Under the pieces are notes generated by a model. It was not told where the DNA came from. It saw only the letters and a list, made by a program, of their open reading frames with translations, and searched no databases. From Deltaproteobacteria bacterium (GTDB taxonomy: Bacteria; Myxococcota_A; UBA9160; UBA6930), in NCBI GenBank assembly GCA_016875395.1, contig VGRF01000003.1, forward strand, positions 124,001 to 188,000: a stretch of DNA of 64,000 nt, written 5' to 3'. Both the position numbers and the translations under genes were made by a program. Of this stretch, positions 27,408 to 39,011 are shown piece after piece (positions within the stretch are counted from its first letter, which is position 1; every line of letters begins with the position of its first letter).

Positions 27408-28855
27408 GCGCGGCGCCTTGCGGCCAGCGCGCGCTGAATCTCCCCAAACCGCTCGCGCGAGATCTCGAAGCGGGCGAGGAACACGAGGCTCACCAGGAAG
27501 AACAGCATCATGCCGGGGCCCTGGAGCAGGCCGAGGCGCATGATCACGTCTGCGGGCACCGAGCCGACGGCCGCGTTGGCGGCGCCTTCGGGGAAGCCGA
27601 TCGCCTGCAGCAACACGCCGCCCAGGAAGTTGCCGACGCCCGAGACGGCCTTGTTCATGAACGCGATCGCCGACACGAAGATGCCTTCCTGGCGTAGGCC
27701 CGTCTGGAGCTCGCTCTCGTCGACGACGTCCATGATCATCGACGAGTAGAGAATGCCGAGCTGGATCGCGGCGAAGACCATCAGGCCGGCGTGCGCCATC
27801 ACGGCAACGAGCAGCGCAGTCGTGCCGTTCTCCGGCATCCAGCCGAGCAGCCGCAGCACGATCGCGAGCGGGCCGAACAGCACGGCGAAGGTCGCGAGCG
27901 CGATGGCGGTGCGGCGCTTGTCGAAGCGCGCACTGATCGGGCGCGCGGCGAGCACGCCCCCGAGCACGGGCACGATCGCGAGCCCCGACATCAGCGCGAG
28001 CTGATCGCTGCGGAACTCCCAGAAATACGTGTTCATGTAGGTGCCGAACACTTCCTGGACGCCGAGCGCGCTCGCCGAGAACAGCGCGGCCACGAGCACC
28101 ATGCGGTACGAGCGATTCCCGAGCGCATTGCGCACTTCCGATGCGAAGCGCCGCGGTGAGAAGAGCGGGCCGGAGCTCGCGGACTGGCGCAGCGTGGGAA
28201 TGAGCGAGTGCGTGCCGGCAGACGAGGCGAGAATCGCGAACGCGGCGAGGACGGCGCAGTAGAGCCCGAGCGCGGGGTAGTTATCAGGGTCGAGGCGGCC
28301 GGTGATGCCTTCGCCCGTGTCGGCGAGGAACACGCGCCAGCCCATCAGGCTCACCGAGATCGCCCCGAGCCAGCCCAGCATCCAGCGGAAGGACACGAGG
28401 CTCGTGCGCTCGTCGTAGTGCGCGGTGATCTCGGGCCCGAGCGCGCTGCTCGGCACCATGTAGAAGGTGAGGAAGAGGCGGACGCCGACGGAGAACGCCG
28501 CCATCCACGCGAACAGGCCCGCGGTGCCGAGGCCCTGGGGCGGCGCCATCAACAGGTAGAAGCACACGCCCATGGGCAGCGCGGCGAAGTACATGAAGGG
28601 GTGACGCCGTCCCCAACGCGAGCGGAAGTTGTCGGAGATCGAGCCCATCAGCGGGTCGGTCACCGCGTCGACGACCATCGCGACGAGGATCGCGGCGCCG
28701 GCCCAGCCTGCGGGTAGGCCGAGCACCGCGCTGTAGTAGAGCATCAGGAACGAGTTGAAGACGGAGTTCTTGGCTCCGTCCGCGATGGAGCCGGCGCCGT
28801 AGGCGAGCTTGATGCGGAGCGGAACTTCGTGCGCGGGAGCTGCTGCAGCGGTCAT
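27389..28855 (-). CDS. GPH-family MFS transporter (MelB-like sodium/solute symporter)
   Basis: A 488-residue membrane protein with about 12 helices. The N-terminal IKLAYGAGSIADGAKNSVFN and the loop VDAVTDPLMGSISDNFRSRW are hallmark GPH (glycoside-pentoside-hexuronide) signatures; the Asp-containing VTDPLMG segment carries the cation-site residues. It takes up a sugar-like or other small solute with Na+ or H+. GPH carriers also occur in catabolic clusters of non-sugar compounds, so the solute is open. It converges on the broken kinase and is followed, on its own strand, by the diguanylate cyclase gene 37 bases upstream. Confidence 0.9.
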   Translation of the reverse strand: MTAAAAPAHEVPLRIKLAYGAGSIADGAKNSVFNSFLMLYYSAVLGLPAGWAGAAILVAMVVDAVTDPLMGSISDNFRSRWGRRHPFMYFAALPMGVCFYLLMAPPQGLGTAGLFAWMAAFSVGVRLFLTFYMVPSSALGPEITAHYDERTSLVSFRWMLGWLGAISVSLMGWRVFLADTGEGITGRLDPDNYPALGLYCAVLAAFAILASSAGTHSLIPTLRQSASSGPLFSPRRFASEVRNALGNRSYRMVLVAALFSASALGVQEVFGTYMNTYFWEFRSDQLALMSGLAIVPVLGGVLAARPISARFDKRRTAIALATFAVLFGPLAIVLRLLGWMPENGTTALLVAVMAHAGLMVFAAIQLGILYSSMIMDVVDESELQTGLRQEGIFVSAIAFMNKAVSGVGNFLGGVLLQAIGFPEGAANAAVGSVPADVIMRLGLLQGPGMMLFFLVSLVFLARFEISRERFGEIQRALAARRRAQGGPR

Positions 28856-28892
28856 CGTGCGCGCGACGCTATCGCGGCATCGCGCCCGCGCG

Positions 28893-29975
28893 TCAGGTCA
28901 CTTCGACCGTTCCGCTCTCGCTCGCGCGGTGGATGCGCGCGCCGCCCGCGCGCTTCGCGGCGTACATCGCCTCGTCGGCGCGAACGAGCATCACTTCTTC
29001 CGAGCTCGCGTGCTGCGGGAACTCGACGAAGCCGATGCTCGCGCTCACCTGGAGCAGCGCCCCGCGCACCGGAAACGGCGCCTGGGCGGCTTCGAGCAGC
29101 TTGCGCGAGAAGATCTCGGCGCCCTTCGGGTCGTCGTACTCGCTGAGCAGCACGACGAACTCGTCGCCGCCGATGCGCGCCGCGACATCGACGCCGCGCG
29201 TGAGCCGGCGGATGCGACCCGCGAGCAGGCGCAACAGCTCGTCCCCGGCGTCGTGTCCGTGCCCGTCGTTGACGCTCTTCATGCCGTCGAGATCGAGGAA
29301 CACGAGCGCGCCGCGGCGGCCGAAGCGCTGCGCGCGCCCGAGCGCGTGGCGCGCGCCGAGCTGGAGCTCGAGGCGATTGGCGAGGCCGGTGAGCGGATCG
29401 GTCGTCGCGAGGTGTTCGAGCTGCGCAGCCTTGCGGTCGTAGGCGCGGCGCAGCGAGACGGCGAGCGCGAGCGAGACCGCCAGCACACCCGACTCCGTGA
29501 GGATCGCGAGGCCGGGGCCAGGATCGATGCGGACCGCGGTCGGTACGAACTCGCTTGCGACCACCAAGGCGAGGCAAGGCGCCGCCCAGACCAGCGCGGC
29601 CTGCGCGCCGAGGAAGTGGGCCGTGCTGAGGAGAAGCAACGGCGCGTAGTACACGATGATCGAGCCCGGGTAGCCGCTGAGGATCACGGAGTAGAAGAGG
29701 CTCGCGACCGAGAGGAACGCGCCGAGGTGCATCGCCAGGCGGAAGCCGCGCCGACTCGGGTCGCCGATCCGGATCGCGAGCAGCAAGCAAGCGCAGGGAA
29801 GCACGTTCGCGAGCGCGATGCCGAAGGCGCCACCCATCAACGGGAGCGCGACGGAGATCAGCGCGCCGTGGGCAGCGAGAATCCAGAGCGGCTGGCGCAC
29901 CCAGTCGCCATCGACCAGCGCGCGCCCGGGCTGCCGCTCGGCGCCTGCCCGCGGTCCTGTCGCCGTGTCCAACAT
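28893..29975 (-). CDS. membrane-bound diguanylate cyclase (GGDEF)
   Basis: A 360-residue protein. The first 180 residues form about five or six membrane helices without a recognisable sensor domain. The GGDEF domain starts at TTDPLTGLANRLELQLGARH and has an intact active site RIGGDEF. The product-inhibition I-site RxxD is present (RGVD, exactly five residues before GGDEF), so the enzyme is probably active and feedback-controlled. It makes cyclic di-GMP from two GTP. It lies upstream of the GPH transporter on the same strand and may be co-transcribed. The signal sensed is unknown. Confidence 0.92.
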   Translation of the reverse strand: MLDTATGPRAGAERQPGRALVDGDWVRQPLWILAAHGALISVALPLMGGAFGIALANVLPCACLLLAIRIGDPSRRGFRLAMHLGAFLSVASLFYSVILSGYPGSIIVYYAPLLLLSTAHFLGAQAALVWAAPCLALVVASEFVPTAVRIDPGPGLAILTESGVLAVSLALAVSLRRAYDRKAAQLEHLATTDPLTGLANRLELQLGARHALGRAQRFGRRGALVFLDLDGMKSVNDGHGHDAGDELLRLLAGRIRRLTRGVDVAARIGGDEFVVLLSEYDDPKGAEIFSRKLLEAAQAPFPVRGALLQVSASIGFVEFPQHASSEEVMLVRADEAMYAAKRAGGARIHRASESGTVEVT

Positions 29976-30050
29976 CCGCGGGAGACATCGTCCCCCGCGC
30001 CGCGACGATTGAGCCCTCGTGAGTCCTGCGAGGCCTTCGCGGGAGGCGCC

Positions 30051-30623
30051 TCAGCCCCGCAGCCCGCGCCGCTTCAGCTCCGCCGCGAGCCGCTCGGTAT
30101 CCGAGCTGAGCGGCGTCGCGAGCCGGCTCGGGTCGAGCGTGCCCGCGGTGTGCTGGAACATCTTGATCCCGTCGTAAGTGATGAACTTCTCGGGCGTCAC
30201 CTCGAGCACGACGCGCAGCGGCGAGTCGAGCATCTTCGCGAACGCGTCCGCCGCGGCCTGCTCGCGGCGCAGGTGGAACGCGAACTCCGGGTAGAACCAC
30301 GCCTTCGTCTCGCGGTCCTCGCGCACGCGGCAGCGGCCCTTGATCGTGATCGTCTTGCTGGGCCCGAGCTCGGTGCCGGTGCTGGTCACGCACACCGAGA
30401 CCTGCGGGTTGCGCTGGATGGCGGCGATGCGGTGGCGGTGCGCGCCGGCCGTGAGCCACATCTTCCCGTTCTTCCAGTAACAACTCATGATCACGCCGAT
30501 CGGCCAGCTGTCCTTCGTGCACCAGCTGAACACGCACTCGCGCGACGCACGCAGCAGCTTCTCCTGGTCCTCGGGATCGAGCCGGTAGATCGAGACTTGC
30601 TCGTAATTCTCCAAGTCGGACAT
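30051..30623 (-). CDS. pyridoxamine 5'-phosphate oxidase family protein
   Basis: A 190-residue split-barrel flavoprotein. The segment CVFSWCTKDSWPIGVIMSCY followed by KMWLTAGAHRHRIAAIQRNP and VSVCVTSTGTELGPSKTITI is the usual FMN-type split-barrel core. The C-terminal EVTPEKFITYDGIKMFQHTA contains the common late motif of such proteins. The reaction is unknown; FMN- or F420-dependent reduction is possible. It lies 19 bases downstream of the CMD/AhpD-like gene on the same strand and is probably co-transcribed with it, which may hint at a redox or peroxide context. Confidence 0.82.
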   Translation of the reverse strand: MSDLENYEQVSIYRLDPEDQEKLLRASRECVFSWCTKDSWPIGVIMSCYWKNGKMWLTAGAHRHRIAAIQRNPQVSVCVTSTGTELGPSKTITIKGRCRVREDRETKAWFYPEFAFHLRREQAAADAFAKMLDSPLRVVLEVTPEKFITYDGIKMFQHTAGTLDPSRLATPLSSDTERLAAELKRRGLRG

Positions 30624-30642
30624 GGCGTCACCTCCGGCGTGC

Positions 30643-31113
30643 CTAGTAGTTGGGGACGTAGATCTCGCAGGCGCCCTTGTCCGAGCCCGCGATCACGAGC
30701 ATGCGCCCGAACGAGTGGTACTGGCCGATCATGAAGCCGAGCTCCGCGATCTCGGCATCGCTGAAGTGCCCGCGCAGCTCCGCGATGAACGCGGCGTCGA
30801 TGGTGCGGAAGTCCGCGAACATCTTCTCCGCGTAGCGCACCGCGAGCGCCTCGCGCGGCGCGAGCGTGCGCTCGGCTTCGGGCAGGTGGATCTGCTCGAT
30901 CGTCGCTTCATCGAGCCCTTGACGCGCCGCCGACGCGTACCGTGCGAAGCTTCAAGTGTCGCAGCCGTTCAGCGCGGCGATCTTCAGGCGCGCGATCTCC
31001 TTGATGCGCGCGGGCACCGCGCCTTCCTCGTGCGCCGGGCGAAAGAACTTCAGGTAGCGGCCGAGCAGCTCGGGCATCGCGGCTCCGAGATCCAACGGCT
31101 TCGCGTGTGTCAT
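30643..31113 (-). CDS. CMD/AhpD-like protein with in-frame TGA, candidate selenoprotein
   Basis: Reading through one TGA gives a complete 156-residue carboxymuconolactone-decarboxylase/AhpD-fold protein. The first part (53 codons) ends in RLKIAALNGCDT. TGA is codon 54 (30954-30952), and SFARYASAARQGLDEATIEQ follows in frame to a normal stop. The TGA stands exactly where the second Cys of the redox CxxC motif belongs (C51-D-T-x54). Glu39, 12 residues before C51, matches the proton-relay Glu of AhpD; the usual His after the second Cys is Arg. A SECIS-like hairpin follows the TGA. Selenocysteine is therefore likely. A Cys-to-stop mutation or base error is the alternative. Confidence 0.7.
30922..30938 (-). 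promoter_or_regulatory. SECIS-like hairpin after the in-frame TGA
   Basis: In the mRNA sense, 13 bases after the TGA, ACGCGTC pairs with GGCGCGT (seven pairs, one G-U) around a GGC loop. The loop begins 20 bases past the TGA and starts with G. This fits the published bacterial SECIS pattern: a short stem, G in the first two loop positions, and a loop about 16-37 bases from the UGA. Such hairpins also arise by chance in G+C-rich DNA, so this supports the selenocysteine reading but does not prove it. Confidence 0.45.
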
Positions 31114-31151
31114 CACGTCTCCTTCGTGCGCGTGTCCGCGCGAAGCGGGCG

Positions 31152-31157
31152 ACGCTA
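31152..31157 (-). promoter_or_regulatory. -10-like TAGCGT element before the CMD/AhpD-like gene
   Basis: On the minus strand GATAGCGTC lies about 38 bases before the ATG of the candidate selenoprotein gene. A strong GAAGGAG ribosome site follows at about eight bases from the ATG. The same GATAGCGTC word stands before the GPH transporter (28866-28871) and before the Rieske gene at 54.3 kb (54337-54342), which supports a shared promoter type. Confidence 0.35.
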
Positions 31158-31171
31158 TCGCGCCTCGCAGC

Positions 31172-31720
31172 TCACGCGCTGCGAATCACCGGCGCGCTGC
31201 TCGACCAGTCGATCTTGCGCACGGGGTCGGTCGCTCCGTCCCAGCCCTCCGCCGCAGTGCGAATGATCGCGAACAAGCCATCCATGCCCGCGGTGCGGGC
31301 CATCAGCTGAATCATCACGCCGGGCTGCTCCGTGGAATCGAGGTACGCGTGCGCGTCCCCGTACGCCTGGCGCAGCCGAAAGCTCCCGCTTGCCTCGAGC
31401 GCAGCGACTTTCGCGGCGACGTCGTCGCACCAGAACGCGAGGTGCTGGAGCCCGCCCTCGGGATGCGCCGCGAGGTACTCGGAGTAGATCGTGGGCGTCG
31501 TGCCGAGCGGCTGGATGACTTCGATCTGCTGGTCGCCCGAGTACGCGAAGGCGGCTTTGAGCTCCGTCTTCACGCGGGCGCCGTCGACGACGGCGTCCAT
31601 GCCGCGCAGGTGCTCGAGGAAGAAGGGCCCGACGCCGCGCGCGAGCCAGTGGCGCATCGCGGCGTCGATGTCGGGAACCACGTACCCCTGCTGGACGATC
31701 GGGCCGAATCGCTTGCTCAC
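31172..31720 (-). CDS. VOC-family (glyoxalase-like) protein
   Basis: A 182-residue vicinal-oxygen-chelate protein resembling the Glyoxalase_4/methylmalonyl-CoA epimerase group. Signatures are IVQQGYVVPDIDAAMRHW, GDQQIEVIQPLGTTPTIY and PEGGLQHLAFWCDD. Typical metal ligands of the fold are present as Gln/Glu/His (IEVIQP, LQHLAF). Reactions in this family range from isomerisation to dioxygenation; the substrate is open. The GTG start overlaps the TGA of the upstream cupin gene and follows an AAGGGGG site. The pair cupin-VOC probably acts in one pathway. Confidence 0.85.
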   Translation of the reverse strand: MSKRFGPIVQQGYVVPDIDAAMRHWLARGVGPFFLEHLRGMDAVVDGARVKTELKAAFAYSGDQQIEVIQPLGTTPTIYSEYLAAHPEGGLQHLAFWCDDVAAKVAALEASGSFRLRQAYGDAHAYLDSTEQPGVMIQLMARTAGMDGLFAIIRTAAEGWDGATDPVRKIDWSSSAPVIRSA

Positions 31721-32142
31721 GCGAGTCCCCCTTGACGGTCGGGCTCGGGAAACACGTAATGCACTTCGCCGAACGAGTCCGCGGCGAAGACATAGAGCAG
31801 TCGCAGCGGCTCGCGGCCCGTGTTGCGCGCGCCATGCCATTCGCCGCCGGGGATGAACACGCTCGTGCCCGCGCGCAGCGCGTGCTCTTCGCCCGCGATG
31901 TGCACGATGCCTTCGCCGGAGAGCACGTAGTAAGCCTCGCTCTGCGCGTGCCGGTGGGGATGGAACGGGCTCGGCTGTCCGGGGCCCAGATCGGTGACGC
32001 CGAGCGTCAGACCCGACGTCGGCGTGCGGTCGCCGCTCAGGAGCGTGCGCCACAGCACCTTGCCCCGGATCGGGTCGTCCCAGCCCTCGACTGGGCACTC
32101 TGCCTCGTGCACGACAACGCCTCGCACCCCGTCCATTTCCAT
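31717..32142 (-). CDS. cupin-domain protein
   Basis: A 141-residue single cupin barrel. Cupin motif 1 reads HPHRHAQSEAYYVLSGEG (metal ligands His, His, Glu) and motif 2 FIPGGEWHGARNTG supplies the final His. The set of ligands is complete, so a bound metal ion is expected. Small cupins of this type act as dioxygenases, isomerases or storage-type binding proteins. The first of two close ATGs was chosen because AGGAGAG precedes it. It overlaps the VOC gene by four bases and is divergent from the SDR gene. Confidence 0.85.
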   Translation of the reverse strand: MEMDGVRGVVVHEAECPVEGWDDPIRGKVLWRTLLSGDRTPTSGLTLGVTDLGPGQPSPFHPHRHAQSEAYYVLSGEGIVHIAGEEHALRAGTSVFIPGGEWHGARNTGREPLRLLYVFAADSFGEVHYVFPEPDRQGGLA

Positions 32143-32179
32143 TTCTCTCTCCTCTACTCGGTCGGCGACCGCGCTTGCG

Positions 32180-32185
32180 TAGCAT
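32180..32185 (+). promoter_or_regulatory. -10-like TAGCAT element before the SDR gene
   Basis: TAGCAT (context GCGTAGCATGC) lies 20 bases before the GTG of the SDR gene, with the AGAGGAG ribosome site in between. It fits the TANNNT -10 pattern seen before several other genes of the window. No -35 is evident. Confidence 0.35.
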
Positions 32186-32205
32186 GCACGCGCAGAGGAG
32201 CTCAC

Positions 32206-33090
32206 GTGAGGAAGTTCGGAAAGTCGAGCACGGCGGAAGAAGTCACGGCGAGCGCGAACCTGCGCGGCAAGCTCGCGCTCGTGACGGGCGTCAGCTCCGG
32301 CATCGGCGCCGAGACGCTGCGCGTGCTGGCGCTGCGCGGCGCCACGGTGATCGGCACCGCGCGCACCGCCGAGAAGGCGCGCGAGGCCTGCGCGCCGCTC
32401 GGGGCGAGCGCGATCCCGCTCGCGTGCGAGCTCGAGAGCCAGGACTCGATCCGCGCCTGCGCGGCGGAGGTCGCGAAGCTCGGGCGTCCGCTCGATCTGC
32501 TGGTCGCGAACGCGGGCATCATGGCGCTGCCGAAGCTCGAGCAGGTGAACGGGATCGAGAAGCAGTTCGCGACGAATCACCTCGGCCACTTTCTGCTGAC
32601 GAACCTGCTGCTCGCGCAAGTCGAGGCGGCGCCAGCCTCTCGCGTCGTCGTCGTGAGCAGCGCCGCGCACCTTCAGGCGCCGCGCGCGGGCATCGAGTTC
32701 GACAACCTGAGCGGCGTGCGGGGATACGCCGGCTGGCGCGCTTATGGGCAGTCGAAGCTCGCGAACGTGCTGTTCGCGAAGTCGCTCGCGCGCCGGCTCG
32801 GGCCGCAGCGCGCGGCCTACTCGCTCCACCCCGGCGTGATCCCGACGAACCTCGGCCGCCACATGAGCCCGCTCGTCACGCTCGCGATGGGGCTGTTCAT
32901 GCGCCCCTTCGCCAAGACGATTCCGCAGGGCGCGGCGACGACTTGTTATGCCGCCGCGCACGCGAGCGCTGGACCGAGCGGCGCATATCTCTCGGACTGC
33001 GCCGTCGCGAAGGCGAACCCGCTCGCGAACGACGCGGCGCTCGCGGACCGGCTGTGGGAGACATCGGAGCGCCTCACTGGCCTCGCCTGA
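32206..33090 (+). CDS. short-chain dehydrogenase/reductase (SDR)
   Basis: A 294-residue classical SDR. The cofactor loop is TGVSSGIGAE, the NAG motif is LVANAGIMALP, the catalytic Ser lies in VVVVSSAAHL and the Tyr-Lys pair in YGQSK. The C-terminal part (HPGVIPTNLGRHM) is typical of retinol-dehydrogenase/WW-domain-oxidoreductase-like SDRs that act on bulky hydrophobic alcohols. NADP(H) or NAD(H) use cannot be fixed. The GTG start follows a GAGGAG site. The gene is divergent from the cupin/VOC pair and converges on the DUF1330 gene. Confidence 0.92.
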   Translation: MRKFGKSSTAEEVTASANLRGKLALVTGVSSGIGAETLRVLALRGATVIGTARTAEKAREACAPLGASAIPLACELESQDSIRACAAEVAKLGRPLDLLVANAGIMALPKLEQVNGIEKQFATNHLGHFLLTNLLLAQVEAAPASRVVVVSSAAHLQAPRAGIEFDNLSGVRGYAGWRAYGQSKLANVLFAKSLARRLGPQRAAYSLHPGVIPTNLGRHMSPLVTLAMGLFMRPFAKTIPQGAATTCYAAAHASAGPSGAYLSDCAVAKANPLANDAALADRLWETSERLTGLA

Positions 33091-33153
33091 GGCGCGTCCG
33101 AAGGGGACCTCGTCGCCGAGCGCCCTGACTCCGAAGCACTTCAGCCAGACCGG

Positions 33154-33447
33154 CTAGCCCGCGTACCCCTCCGCGAACACGAGCCGCGTGCGCGCGGTTC
33201 GCTCGCGCAGGGCGATGAGCGGCGTGTACTCTGGCGACGCGTACCACGCGCGGGCGCGCGCGAGGCTCGGGAACTCGAGCACGATCAGGCGGCGCGGCGA
33301 CCAGTCGCCCTCCTTCACCTCGGTCGCGCCGCCGCGCACGAGGTAGCGACCGCCGTACGCCGCAATCGTGGCGGGTACGCGCGCGCGGTACTCCTCGAAG
33401 CCAGTGGGGTCGGTGATCTCGACGTCGGCGATCACGAGAGCAGGCAT
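33154..33447 (-). CDS. DUF1330 protein
   Basis: A 97-residue protein of the DUF1330 family, a ferredoxin-like dimeric alpha/beta-barrel. The line PALVIADVEITDPTGFEEYR at the start and SPRRLIVLEFPSLARARAWY in the middle are the family hallmark at normal length. The biochemical role is unknown; relatives include small monooxygenases and isomerases. It has a GGGGAC ribosome site. It follows the Baeyer-Villiger-type monooxygenase gene on the same strand by 31 bases and may be co-transcribed with it. Confidence 0.85.
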   Translation of the reverse strand: MPALVIADVEITDPTGFEEYRARVPATIAAYGGRYLVRGGATEVKEGDWSPRRLIVLEFPSLARARAWYASPEYTPLIALRERTARTRLVFAEGYAG

Positions 33448-33478
33448 GGGTCCCCTTCGTCGCGCGCGGCCCCGCAGC

Positions 33479-35269
33479 TCACGGCTGCAGCTCGAGGCCC
33501 TCGAGCTTTCCCGTCTCACGCCACTCGGCCATCAGCTTGAAGAAGGGCTCGGGGCCGAGGCCGTAGGAGCCGTTCTGCACGGCGATGCCTTCGACCTTGC
33601 CCTCGTTGTTGTAGTAGCCGGGCGTGCAGGCATCGAGGAAGTCGCGGCCGAAGCGCGAGAGGTCGATGATCGTCTGTACCCACGCGTCCTCGGCATCGCG
33701 CTTCGCCTCGAATGTGCGCGCACCGCGCCTCAGCGTTTCGCCGATCACGTAGGCGATGTGCTTGCTCTGGTCCTGGAGCAAGTGCGGATAGTTCGCGGTG
33801 AACGCGGACTGCTGCGCGCCCATGATCAGCATGTTCGGGAAGCCGTTCGTGTGCAGCCCGTGCAGCGTGCGCACGCCGCCCGCCCACTTCTCGCTGAGCG
33901 CGACGCCGCCGCGGCCGACCATGTCGTAGCCCGCGCGGCGCGTGTAGCCCGTGCCGACCTCGAAGCCGGTCGCGAACACGATGCAGTCGAGCTCGTACTC
34001 CACACCGTTCGCGACGATGCCCTTCTCGGTGATGCGCTCGACGCCCTTCCCGTTCGTGTCGACCAGCTTCACGTTGGGGCGATTGAACGCGGGCAGATAG
34101 TCGTCGTTGAACGTGGGGCGCTTGCAGAACTGCCGGTAGTACGGCTTCAGCGCCTCCGCGGTCGCCGGGTCCCTAACAAGCGTCTCCGCGCGCCTCCGGA
34201 TCTGCTCCATCTTCTCGAAGTCCGCGAGCTCGAGCGTCTTGGTGGCGGCGTCGGGCGACGCGACCTTGCTGGGATCCTGCTGCGCCTGCACGAGCAGCTT
34301 GCGGATGATGTCGGTCCAGCCGTCGTTGACGAGATCCTCCGCCTGCCAGCCGCCCGAGACGAGGATGTTGAAGTTCTGCATGCGCTTCTGCTGCCAGCCG
34401 GCGGTCAGCGACTTCGCCCACTCCGGATCGGTCGGCTTGTTGCCGCGCACGTCCACCGAGCTCGGCGTGCGCTGGAACACGATCAGCTGCTTCGCGGCCG
34501 CGGCCAGGTGCGGCACGCACTGAATCGCGGTCGCGCCGGTGCCGATGATGCCGACGCGCTTGTCGCCGAGCTTCGTGAGGTTCCCGTCGGGCCCGCCGCC
34601 GGTGTAGTCGTAGTCCCAGCGGCTGGTGTGGAACGAGTGCCCATTGAACGTGCCGACGCCGGGAATGCCCGGCAGCTTCGGTCGATTGAGCGGCCCGTTC
34701 GACATCACCACGAACTGCGCCGTGATCTGGTCGCCGCGATTCGTCGAGACGAGCCAGCGCGCCTCGTCCTCCTGCCAGCGCAGCTCCGTCACTTCGGTCT
34801 GGAACAAGACGTCGCGGTAGAGGTCGTAATGCTTCGCGATCGCGCGCGCGTGCGCGAGGATCTCGGGCGCGAACGCGTACTTCTCCTTCGGCACGTAGCC
34901 GACTTCTTCGAGCAGCGGCAGATAGATGTACGACTCGATGTCGCACTGCGCGCCGGGGTAGCGGTTCCAGTACCAGGTGCCGCCGAAGTCGCCGCCCTTC
35001 TCGATCATGCGGAAGCCGTCGATGCCCGCCTCGCGCAGCCGCGCCGCCGCCATCTGCCCGCCGAAGCCGCCGCCAATGACGACGATCGGCACTTCGTCCG
35101 CGACCGGCTCACGCACGATCGGGTCGACATACGGGTCGTCGAGGTACTTCGCGAATTCGCCCGCCACTTCGACGTACTGCGCGTTGCCGTCTACGCGCAG
35201 GCGCTTGTCGCGCTCAGCGCGGTACTTCGCGCGGAGAGAGTCGGCGTCGAAGTTGCTGGGGTCGCTCAT
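33479..35269 (-). CDS. flavin-containing monooxygenase, Baeyer-Villiger type
   Basis: A 596-residue class B flavoprotein. The FAD Rossmann motif is GGGFGG (66-71), the Baeyer-Villiger long fingerprint begins GGTWYWNRYPGAQCD, the short fingerprint is FNGHSFHTSRWD and the NADPH motif is GIIGTGATAIQ. The N-terminal extension of about 60 residues is usual for cyclopentadecanone/steroid-type BVMOs. It inserts O next to a ketone to form an ester or lactone with NADPH and O2. It is the largest of three such enzymes in the window (others at 46.4 and 49.4 kb). Substrate inferred as cyclic ketone or steroid. Confidence 0.93.
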   Translation of the reverse strand: MSDPSNFDADSLRAKYRAERDKRLRVDGNAQYVEVAGEFAKYLDDPYVDPIVREPVADEVPIVVIGGGFGGQMAAARLREAGIDGFRMIEKGGDFGGTWYWNRYPGAQCDIESYIYLPLLEEVGYVPKEKYAFAPEILAHARAIAKHYDLYRDVLFQTEVTELRWQEDEARWLVSTNRGDQITAQFVVMSNGPLNRPKLPGIPGVGTFNGHSFHTSRWDYDYTGGGPDGNLTKLGDKRVGIIGTGATAIQCVPHLAAAAKQLIVFQRTPSSVDVRGNKPTDPEWAKSLTAGWQQKRMQNFNILVSGGWQAEDLVNDGWTDIIRKLLVQAQQDPSKVASPDAATKTLELADFEKMEQIRRRAETLVRDPATAEALKPYYRQFCKRPTFNDDYLPAFNRPNVKLVDTNGKGVERITEKGIVANGVEYELDCIVFATGFEVGTGYTRRAGYDMVGRGGVALSEKWAGGVRTLHGLHTNGFPNMLIMGAQQSAFTANYPHLLQDQSKHIAYVIGETLRRGARTFEAKRDAEDAWVQTIIDLSRFGRDFLDACTPGYYNNEGKVEGIAVQNGSYGLGPEPFFKLMAEWRETGKLEGLELQP

Positions 35270-35439
35270 CGCGGTGCTCCTGTCGTGCTGCCGAGCGCGA
35301 GGCTTCGGCGCGGGCTGTGAGAGCGGGAGTTTGCCGCAGCCGACTGGCTCCGCGCTTCCGGCAGTCCGTGCGCAGGTCCCTGTGGTTGCTCGAAACGCAC
35401 GCCCGATCCAGCATCGCCGTCCTCGCGAAGGAGCCTGCC

Positions 35440-36501
35440 ATGCCCCGCCGCCTGTTCTCCGCCGACTCGCACTGCGTGATCCAGGGCGACGCCGTGAAGA
35501 AGAATCTCGCCGCGAAGTTCCACGCCGACTGGGACGCGGGCATGGCGAAGTACGACGCGCTGCGCGCGCAGCAGATGGCGGGCGGCAAGCTCGAGCTCGA
35601 GGACTTCGTCGACCTCGAGGCGGCGCGGCACCCGGGCTACTTCGACTCGCGCGCGCGGCTCGCGGCGATGGACGCGGATGGCGTCGAATGTGAGGTGATG
35701 TACTCGGAGTTCGACTTCACCTCGAAGGTCTATCAGGTGGGCGCGAGCTGGAGAGAGTGCGCGACCGCCTATAACAACACGTTGAACCAGTTCGCGCAGG
35801 CGGACCCGAAGCGCATCCTGATCACGTACCAGCTGCCGCTGATCGACATCGAGTACGCCGTGAGCGAGATCCACCGCCTCGCCGCGCTCGGCGCGCGTTC
35901 GATCCAGATCCCGAACTTCCCGAGCGAAGTCGGTATGCCCGACTACCACGACGCGCGCTACGAGCCGCTCTGGAGCGCGTTCGAGGAGACGGGCGTCGTG
36001 GTGGCGAACCATCTCACGCTGAAGGACGGCCTCTGGGACGTGTTCCGCCGCGATCCGACGCCGCAGAAGGGCATCTTCACCGCGCAGCCTGGCTTCGCGA
36101 TCGCCGAGACGCTGTGCTGGTACATCCTCACGGGCGTGCTCGAGCGGCACCCGGGACTGCGCGTCGTATTCGTCGAGCCGGGCCTGTTCTGGTTGCCCGG
36201 CTTCATTCGATACCTCGACTCGCGCATGCACCATCACTACGTGTTCCCCGGCGTGAAGGAGCTGCCGAGCACGTACTTCCGGCGCCAGATGGCGGTGACG
36301 TTCGTGCACGAGCCCGAGGGCGTGGAGCAGCGGCACGCGATCGGTATCGACAACGTGCTCTGGTCGACCGACTTCCCGCACCCCGTCTGCAACTGGCCGA
36401 ACGCCGGCGCGAAGATCGAGAAACAATTCGCGGGCGTGCCCGAGAGCGAAGTGCACGCGATCACTTGGGCGAACGGCGCGCGGATGTACGGCATCGCATG
36501 A
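35440..36501 (+). CDS. amidohydrolase family 2 protein
   Basis: A 353-residue TIM-barrel hydrolase of the ACMSD-like amidohydrolase_2 group. The start FSADSHCVIQGDA replaces the usual HxH with a DSH form common in this subgroup. Further features are ALGARSIQIPNFPSE, HPGLRVVFVEPGLFWLPGF and the late metal-site WSTDFPHPVCNWPN. Members decarboxylate or hydrolyse products of ring cleavage. The ATG was chosen for the AAGGAG site eight bases upstream; earlier in-frame codons lie in the divergent promoter region. Its stop overlaps the start of the CoA-transferase gene, so the two act together. Confidence 0.88.
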   Translation: MPRRLFSADSHCVIQGDAVKKNLAAKFHADWDAGMAKYDALRAQQMAGGKLELEDFVDLEAARHPGYFDSRARLAAMDADGVECEVMYSEFDFTSKVYQVGASWRECATAYNNTLNQFAQADPKRILITYQLPLIDIEYAVSEIHRLAALGARSIQIPNFPSEVGMPDYHDARYEPLWSAFEETGVVVANHLTLKDGLWDVFRRDPTPQKGIFTAQPGFAIAETLCWYILTGVLERHPGLRVVFVEPGLFWLPGFIRYLDSRMHHHYVFPGVKELPSTYFRRQMAVTFVHEPEGVEQRHAIGIDNVLWSTDFPHPVCNWPNAGAKIEKQFAGVPESEVHAITWANGARMYGIA

Positions 36502-39011
36502 CGAGCGGCGCTCCGGCACTCGACGGCCTGCGCGTGCTCGATCTCTCGTGGGGCATCGCGGGCCCGATGACGGGCATGCTGCTCGCGGACTCGGGCGCCC
36601 ACGTGACGAAGATCGAGCCGCGCGGCGGCGACCCGTTCCGCGCGCAGCTCGGCTACCGCGTGTGGCAGCGCGGCAAGCGCAGCGCGGTGCTCGATCTGAA
36701 GAGCGCGGCGGATCGCGAGGCGTTTCTCGCGCTCGCGAAGCACGCGGACGTGGTGCTCGAGAGCTTCGCGCCGGGCACGACGGCGAAGCTCGGCATCGAC
36801 TACGCGACGCTCGCCGTTGCGAATCCGCGCCTCGTCTACTGCTCGATCACCGCCTACGGCCGTAACAACAAGCACTCCGCGCGGCCCGGCTACGACTCGC
36901 TCGTGGCGGCGCGCACGGGCCTGCACTTCGAGCAGCGCGGCTGGCCCGATGGCGCGCTGAACCACATGGCGCGGCGGCCGGATCCGTTCGCGCACATCGA
37001 CTTCGACTACGCGCAGGTACAAGGCCCCGCGCGCGAGGGCCCGGTGTTCCCCGCCTCGTTCTACCCGAGCCTCGGCGCGTTCTTCGCCGCGACGCTCGGC
37101 ATTCACGCCGCGCTCCGCGCGCGCGAGATCACCGGGCGCGGCCAGTGGGTGGAGACTTCGCTGCTGCAGGGCGCGCTCGCCTGTGCAAGCGGCGTGTGGC
37201 AACGCGCGGAGCGCGTCGATGCGAAGGACTTCGACTCGTGGATTCTCGGCGCGCGCTCGCCGAAGGGGCACTTCGAGTGCGCGGATGGGCGCTGGATCCA
37301 CAACTGGGTGCCGAACCCGCGCTTCCTGCTCTCCGCGTCCGCGGGCGATGCGCTGAATGCGACGCCGGAGCTCGCCGCGAAGAACGACCCGGATCGCTTC
37401 GGCACCGCGCCCGGCGAGCTCGTGGTGATGCAGCACTACCAGCCGCTGCTCGCCGAAGCCGCGAGGAAGTTCCCTGCTGACGGCTGGGTGCGCGCGGCGG
37501 CTGCGGCGAACATGACGATTCAGCCCGTGCGCTCGCCCGAGGAAGCGCTCGCGGATCCGCTCTTCCTCGCCGATGGCTGTGTCGTTACGGCCCTCGACGC
37601 GGAGCTCGGCGCGATCCGCCAAGTCGGCAGCACGATTCGGCTCGCGAAGAATCCGCAGCGCATCGGCGCGCCCGCCGCGCGCGTGGGCGAGCACTCCGCG
37701 GCGGTGAGGGAGGAAGCGGCGGCGCTCGCGCTGAAGCCCGCGCGCGAGGCGACGCCGGGGCGCAAGCTGCGCGCGCCGCTCGAGGGCATCACGGTGCTCG
37801 ACCTCGGCCTCGCGATCGCGGGCCCGTTCGGCACGCAGCTGCTCAGCGACCTCGGCGCGAACGTGATCAAGATCAACGCGCTCTACGACATCTACTGGCA
37901 CGCGAACCACATCGCGTACATGGCGAACCGCGGCAAGCGCAGCATCGCGCTCGATTTGAAGGAGCCGCGCGCGATGAAGGTGCTGCACGAGCTGGTCGCG
38001 CGCGCCGACGTGGTGCAGCACAACATGCGCTACGACGCGGCGCAGCGGATCGGCGTCGACTACGAGAGCTTGCGCCGCGTGAATCCGCGCCTCGTCTACT
38101 GCCACACGCGCGGCTTCGAGAATGGCCCGCGCGCGAGCCTGCCCGGCAACGACCAAACGGGGGGCTGCCTGGCCGGCACACAGTACGAAGACGGCGGCAT
38201 GGCGCGCGGCGGGAAGCCGCTGTGGAGCTTCTGCTCGCTCGGCGATACCGGCAACGGCTTCCTCTCCGCGATCGCGATGATCCAGGCATTGATGCAGCGC
38301 GATCGCAGCGGCGAAGGCCAGTTCTGCGACACCTCGATCGTGTACGCGCAGCTGCTGAACACGAGCTACGCGGTGGCGCGCGCGGACGGCAGCGGCTTCG
38401 TGCGCCCGCACACCGACGCGACGCAGACGGGATTCAGCGCGACGAATCGCTTCTACGAGACGCAGCGCGGCTGGCTGTGCGTGCTCGCGCCGGGCGACGC
38501 CGCGTTCGCGCGCATGTGCGCCGCGCTCGGCGCGCCCGAGCTCGCGCGCGACGCACGCTTCGCGAGCGAAGCCGCGCGCGCGAAGCACGACGCGGAGCTC
38601 GCGCAGTCGCTAGGCGCGCTACTCGCGCAGCGCAGCGCGCAGGGGGCGTTCGCCGCGCTCGACGCCGCGGGCGTGCCGTGCGAGATCTGCGACCCCGAGT
38701 TCGCGCTGGGGCTCCACGACGATGCAGAGCTGAGGCAGCGCGGCTGGACCGCGAGCTACGAGCACCCGTTCGTCGGCAAGCTCGATCAGGTCGGCCTGCT
38801 GTGCGACCTCAGCGACACGCCCGGCCGCGTGCAGGGCCCGCCGCTGATCGTCGGCCAGCACAGCCGCGAGATTCTGCGCGAGCTCGGCTACGCGCCGGCC
38901 GACATCGACGCGCTGTGCGCCAGCTGCGTGCTCGACTGGGAGCCCGGCAAGCCGCATCGCGTCGTGATCCCGAGCAAGTGGCTGCCGAAGCCCGCGGCGA
39001 AGAGCGAATGA
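36498..39011 (+). CDS. tandem family III CoA-transferase (two CaiB/BaiF domains)
   Basis: An 837-residue fusion of two CaiB/BaiF-type domains. Domain 1 starts LRVLDLSWGIAGPMTG and domain 2, near residue 428, starts ITVLDLGLAIAGPFGTQLL. In domain 2 the segment SFCSLGDTGNGFLSAIAM holds the Asp expected at the catalytic position. The matching place in domain 1 (PASFYPSLGAFFAATLGI) has none, so only domain 2 is likely to be catalytic. It transfers CoA between acids, activating a substrate without ATP. It is translationally coupled to the amidohydrolase and lies before the second DUF35/thiolase pair, with a repeat cluster in between. Confidence 0.9.
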   Translation: MTSGAPALDGLRVLDLSWGIAGPMTGMLLADSGAHVTKIEPRGGDPFRAQLGYRVWQRGKRSAVLDLKSAADREAFLALAKHADVVLESFAPGTTAKLGIDYATLAVANPRLVYCSITAYGRNNKHSARPGYDSLVAARTGLHFEQRGWPDGALNHMARRPDPFAHIDFDYAQVQGPAREGPVFPASFYPSLGAFFAATLGIHAALRAREITGRGQWVETSLLQGALACASGVWQRAERVDAKDFDSWILGARSPKGHFECADGRWIHNWVPNPRFLLSASAGDALNATPELAAKNDPDRFGTAPGELVVMQHYQPLLAEAARKFPADGWVRAAAAANMTIQPVRSPEEALADPLFLADGCVVTALDAELGAIRQVGSTIRLAKNPQRIGAPAARVGEHSAAVREEAAALALKPAREATPGRKLRAPLEGITVLDLGLAIAGPFGTQLLSDLGANVIKINALYDIYWHANHIAYMANRGKRSIALDLKEPRAMKVLHELVARADVVQHNMRYDAAQRIGVDYESLRRVNPRLVYCHTRGFENGPRASLPGNDQTGGCLAGTQYEDGGMARGGKPLWSFCSLGDTGNGFLSAIAMIQALMQRDRSGEGQFCDTSIVYAQLLNTSYAVARADGSGFVRPHTDATQTGFSATNRFYETQRGWLCVLAPGDAAFARMCAALGAPELARDARFASEAARAKHDAELAQSLGALLAQRSAQGAFAALDAAGVPCEICDPEFALGLHDDAELRQRGWTASYEHPFVGKLDQVGLLCDLSDTPGRVQGPPLIVGQHSREILRELGYAPADIDALCASCVLDWEPGKPHRVVIPSKWLPKPAAKSE

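Follow-up and report, generated by a model that had tools for sequence, protein, structure and literature searches.

Selenoproteins with a CxxU motif in the AhpD/CMD superfamily have been known as a class since 2005. The Sargasso Sea survey reported 27 AhpD-like and 4 CMD proteins of the CxxU type (PMC1088965), the GOS survey reported 299 proteins as AhpD-like 1 and 70 as AhpD-like 2, the latter with pfam02627 (PMC2398784), and CxxU AhpD/CMD selenoproteins also appear in a 2026 review (PMC13188914). The initial annotation of the DNA studied here had mentioned such proteins from marine surveys, and these two surveys confirm it. For PA0269 of Pseudomonas aeruginosa (2o4d, 2ijc, 7xw1), a CxxC protein of the same superfamily, a relay of Glu36, Cys48, Tyr50, Cys51 and His55 has been proposed (PMC3141380).

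Our analysis of a 64-kb stretch of DNA (the window) points to a well-supported new member of this class. We put at about 0.96 the probability that the in-frame TGA of the gene listed below encodes selenocysteine (Sec) with the help of a bacterial SECIS element, a reading that comes from sequence comparison and makes the gene a CxxU selenoprotein of the CMD/AhpD superfamily. Like the Sargasso and GOS proteins, as far as their descriptions allow comparison, the predicted product has a PF02627 domain with Sec as the second redox residue, a SECIS right after the UGA, and Cys homologues. Unlike them, it comes from an assignable organism and belongs to an orthologous group with an invariant Arg after the CxxU. 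The features of the locus are as follows.

30643..31113, minus strand: predicted CMD/AhpD-like selenoprotein gene, 156 residues with Sec at 54, ATG start and TAG stop
30952..30954, minus strand: in-frame TGA, read as Sec54 of C51-D-T-U54 (second redox position); TGA recurs in this column in the Sec-type orthologues, with TGC in the Cys forms
30961..30963, minus strand: Cys51 codon, first redox residue, invariant in alignment A1
30997..30999, minus strand: Glu39 codon, at the position of AhpD Glu118 and PA0269 Glu36, invariant in A1
30940..30942, minus strand: Arg58 codon, at the position of AhpD His137 and PA0269 His55 (spacing compared with PMC3141380), invariant in A1
31119..31124, minus strand: Shine-Dalgarno-like AAGGAG, 5 nt before the ATG, read directly from the sequence
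30922..30938, minus strand: putative bacterial SECIS hairpin with a 7-bp stem and a GGC loop, 13 nt after the TGA

The coordinates first given for the gene were right, with the minus strand left unstated. From the ATG (31113-31111) the frame codes for 53 residues ending in NGCDT, meets the TGA (30954-30952) and continues for 102 residues to the TAG (30645-30643); residues are numbered from this ATG with the TGA taken as one residue, which gives C51-D-T-U54 and Arg58. The product matches the Pfam CMD model PF02627 at 32.4 bits against a curated cut-off of 23 (E 9.6e-8). This is the sole in-frame TGA in the 64 kb with coding-type GC3 on both sides and a proper hairpin.

We recovered 33 Sec-type orthologous sequences (the window gene and 32 others), 63-75% identical and with the TGA in the same column. 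Another 17 orthologues, complete or nearly so, came from the 60 nearest genomes, and each of these except one contains a single internal TGA. When 379 genomes from across the phylum were searched with a profile, orthologues were confined to the order of the window and one further family (f12) of the same class, and a single-protein search of genome contigs added one relative only, L020, from the Myxococcales MAG UWMA-0315. This sequence matches a genome from the order of the window (G323) at 100% identity over 3474 bases, which assigns the source organism to the phylum of that MAG, apparently Myxococcota; L020 and L093 are one sequence, entered a single time in pair counts. An alignment with Cys homologues, proposed in the initial annotation, revealed a C/U column at residue 54: two Cys-type orthologues, L028 (GCNLC) and the more distant L110 (ECQTC), have TGC there and no hairpin, so that the UGA falls where homologues have Cys, as expected of a selenoprotein. 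The genome of L028 still carries selA, and the replacement of Sec by Cys in this orthologue indicates that Sec is not indispensable.

The hairpin was found where it had first been noted, with its 5' arm at 30938-30932, a GGC loop at 30931-30929 and its 3' arm at 30928-30922, after a 13-nt unpaired spacer. Its 7-bp stem includes one G-U pair. It lies directly after the UGA and has a small apical loop with G, the feature described for the bacterial SECIS (PMC1088965). Taken alone, the window hairpin is weak evidence: its single-sequence fold is unremarkable against dinucleotide shuffles (z -0.71), and synonymous-codon shuffles give it p=0.013. What is decisive is the comparison between genes. 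The stem was significant at p<0.05 against synonymous-codon shuffles in 46 of 51 Sec-type genes and in 0 of 8 Cys-type genes. In a set of 41 distinct Sec-type sequences that combines orthologues with same-register paralogues, 99.0% of the stem cells are paired, six of the seven pairs show double changes and 43 cells are compensatory against 7.4 in shuffles, figures that somewhat favour structure because paralogues in the 43-row alignment were restricted to that register. The result for orthologues alone is independent of this choice, with 99.6% of stem cells paired and 11 of them compensatory, where shuffles give 1.4. In the larger set, pairing was lost when the partner was shifted by 1-3 columns. 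The element is conserved and covarying in the Sec copies and absent from the Cys copies.

Four loci (L103, L105, L106 and L108) illustrate how the protein follows the stem. In these, Ser-Ala-Thr-Arg has become Gln-Ala-Ala plus a fourth residue that is His, Gln or Arg, and both arms are rewritten from ACGCGTC/GACGCGT to ATGCGCA/TGCGCAT or ACGCGCA/TGCGCGT around an unchanged GGC loop; the outermost pair is lost in L106. The four are mutually related and therefore represent few independent events. Codon choice is also restricted. The third-position difference rate drops to 0.075 in the six hairpin codons, from 0.48 before the TGA and 0.51 after the hairpin (33 Sec-type genes, pairwise), GCG (Ala), TCG (Ser), ACG (Thr) and CGT (Arg) are the sole codons used wherever the amino acid is kept, and CGT occupies one hairpin Arg in 30 of 30 sequences against 9% of Arg codons elsewhere. 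Since the protein alone does not require such codons, the constraint is attributed to the RNA. No Rfam match was obtained in the window at gathering scores. When a covariance model of the SECIS was run over the source genome, the window hairpin was the single significant site (E 3e-10). Those of its next candidates that were inspected were set aside: they had no fitting UGA with an open frame and seem to be chance matches.

The initial annotation had called for a search of the genome for selA, selB, selC and selD, and all four were present in this draft assembly (4.5 Mb, 96% complete, 96 contigs). The matches were selA at E 1.9e-154, selB at 282 bits and above its cut-off, selD at 262 bits as an NDH-SelD fusion, and a tRNA-Sec with anticodon TCA (UCA) that scores 71 bits and passes Rfam RF01852. 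The selD gene (L018, C1:239014-239925) follows an NADH-dehydrogenase-like domain in a 746-codon open frame, and its active site holds Cys (CGGCAAK); Ndh-SelD fusions have already been described (PMC2398784). In the proposed mechanism, SelB would bind the hairpin that begins 13 nt after the UGA and bring Sec-tRNA(Sec), with its UCA anticodon, to this UGA at codon 54, and the sequence data strongly suggest that insertion there would yield the full 156-residue helical protein. selA was found in 56 of 61 genomes (the source genome and 60 relatives), and no TGA-bearing CMD match was found in the five relatives without a selA match among these 61 genomes, several of them incomplete. This joint absence agrees with a link to Sec and falls short of proof.

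The same genome holds two more CMD genes with an in-frame TGA in this column and a hairpin at +11: L113 (C1:63824-64228, minus strand; CGLU) and L114 (C1:313436-313831, plus strand; CGFU). Their hairpins are individually weaker (p=0.045 and p=0.19, respectively, against synonymous-codon shuffles), and both genes probably encode further selenoproteins. Two other Sec-type CMD subfamilies were seen in related genomes, one with CHVU (L116-L119 and L126), weaker hairpins and an AGTTG loop, and one with CKQU (L120-L122 and L124) and a stem with a GGG loop. A tree of 56 CMD sequences requires at least five changes between Sec and Cys, and the exchange has thus been repeated.

Other explanations of the TGA were weighed against these data. 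A sequencing or assembly error in an ordinary CxxC CMD gene, with TGC or TGT as the true codon, would be conceivable in a draft of this kind, as a single base change would yield Cys and Cys homologues exist. However, the same TGA is present across 33 orthologues from different genomes and accompanies a covarying hairpin that the Cys copies lack; the orthologues already refute such an error, to which we attach a negligible probability. A pseudogene or a genuine stop would leave a 53-residue peptide only, and TGA does act as an ordinary stop elsewhere in the clade, where several orthologues end in it. This explanation is extremely improbable given that the codons past the TGA evolve as protein and specify many invariant residues: compared in pairs, the 33 Sec-type genes differ at codon positions 1, 2 and 3 at rates of 0.17, 0.13 and 0.48 upstream of the TGA, and of 0.19, 0.14 and 0.51 downstream of the hairpin, and this equal constraint on both sides argues for one gene.

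The frame itself demands nothing beyond read-through, so UGA could in principle be decoded as Trp or Gly, or through a suppressor tRNA. Against this, the column has Cys in homologues and never Trp or Gly, TGA also terminates a gene in the same genome (that of L114), the complete Sec machinery with its tRNA-Sec(UCA) is present, and the SECIS is conserved; we regard decoding as another residue as having hardly any chance of being correct. Insertion of selenocysteine, as first proposed for this gene, is the reading favoured by the sel genes, the C/U column and the covarying SECIS.

An AF2 model built on the orthologue alignment (pLDDT 90) has an all-helical AhpD-like fold, and Foldseek aligned it with AhpD-like chains at TM 0.72-0.78. 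The best solved matches (2gmy, 6k40, 7xw1, 2ijc and 2o4d) are AhpD-like or antioxidant-defence proteins, and the sequence matches agree, with PA0269 and Atu0492 as the best. PA0269 resembles the predicted protein in fold (TM about 0.78), in size and in its E-x11-C-x2-C/U spacing, which supports the earlier statement that Glu39 and Cys51 fit the AhpD layout (Glu36, Cys48 and Cys51 in PA0269; PMC3141380). The two proteins are only about 24% identical, and the CxxC, Tyr50 and His55 of PA0269 are met by U54, Thr53 and Arg58. Mycobacterium tuberculosis AhpD likewise shares the superfamily and the Glu and CxxC(U) at equal spacing, whereas its relay residues His132 and His137 are replaced by Thr53 and Arg58, and the window protein is shorter and has no conserved neighbour. 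With Glu39, Cys51, Thr53, Sec54 and Arg58, the protein departs from the five-residue AhpD relay (Glu-Cys-His/Tyr-Cys-His) at two positions beyond Sec for Cys. Only one of 19 members matched the NCBIfam ahpD model TIGR00777, weakly (E 0.0068) and without qualifying for membership. Identity as a true AhpD is therefore not supported, and with the His relay replaced the protein may not serve as a genuine AhpC adaptor. There is also distant similarity in the AhpD core to NF053654 (YciW-related (seleno)protein; 35.3 bits against a cut-off of 310) and to NF041047 (GSU3128 family (seleno)protein; a weak match only), and the window protein is a member of neither. No NCBIfam equivalog model claims this subfamily.

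The Arg in place of His, described at first as unusual, is indeed a replacement. It is not an oddity of one gene but a trait of the subfamily: Arg58 does not vary among the orthologues, Cys-type L028 included, L110 has it too, and equivalents occur in other Cys paralogues (CPICKAIRF, CRSCMAIRY), so that it is not Sec-specific. At neutral pH a selenol is ionised, and it depends less on a proton relay. Arg58 may then simply stabilise the anion. A further Cys near residue 147 (ACEIYVP in A1) is kept in most orthologues and absent in L029, L034 and L110; it sits in or beside the low-confidence tail of the model and is a possible third redox residue.

Sequence and model together make it likely that the protein is some type of selenol/thiol oxidoreductase. 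On the basis of its fold, its CxxU motif and the invariant Glu39, we propose that Sec54 would attack a peroxide, a similar electrophile or an oxidised partner and then form a selenenylsulfide with Cys51, to be reduced by a thioredoxin-like or lipoyl donor. A peroxidase-type role specifically is somewhat favoured. At issue here is the functional part of the interpretation only, where a selenoprotein with other chemistry, such as a Bmp8-like reductive dehalogenase, RclX-like reactive-chlorine defence or another CMD activity, is the less probable choice while still a substantial one. Structures of Bmp8 and RclX are among the fold matches and the AhpD relay His residues have given way to Thr and Arg, but the best fold and sequence matches, PA0269 and Atu0492, are AhpD-like or antioxidant-defence proteins, themselves little characterised. 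We consider it rather unlikely that the subfamily is a Sec-specialised branch with non-AhpD chemistry, in which Arg58 would stabilise the selenolate for a substrate new to CMD proteins, in a lineage with parallel CMD selenoproteins and repeated Sec/Cys switching.

The gene neighborhood gave no further lead. Genes around the window copy encode MFS, GGDEF, PPOX, VOC, cupin, SDR, DUF1330, flavin monooxygenase and amidohydrolase proteins. The surroundings at 28852-36519 look catabolic, with the flavin monooxygenase (35269-33479), DUF1330, VOC, cupin, SDR and amidohydrolase genes. None of the genes around the window copy was found within about 6 kb of any of 18 orthologous loci. Cluster analysis likewise yielded no neighbour common to most orthologues; its larger clusters consist of the gene's own overlapping reading frames. 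The PPOX gene starts about 20 bases downstream, and co-transcription is plausible here without being a feature of the family. A functional link to PPOX, suggested in the initial annotation, is not upheld by this unconserved neighbourhood, and PPOX, VOC, cupin and flavin monooxygenase were not counted as parts.

By routine annotation this gene would appear as a truncated fragment or pseudogene, though it would be an intact redox enzyme carried by dozens of genomes in a lineage that has received little study. The evolutionary case for Sec in this subfamily is unusually complete. One protein family offers a natural experiment, with Sec and a hairpin in some members and Cys without a hairpin in others, in which amino-acid changes follow base pairing. 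The alignment should be useful to refine SECIS models and to ask why Sec is retained or lost.
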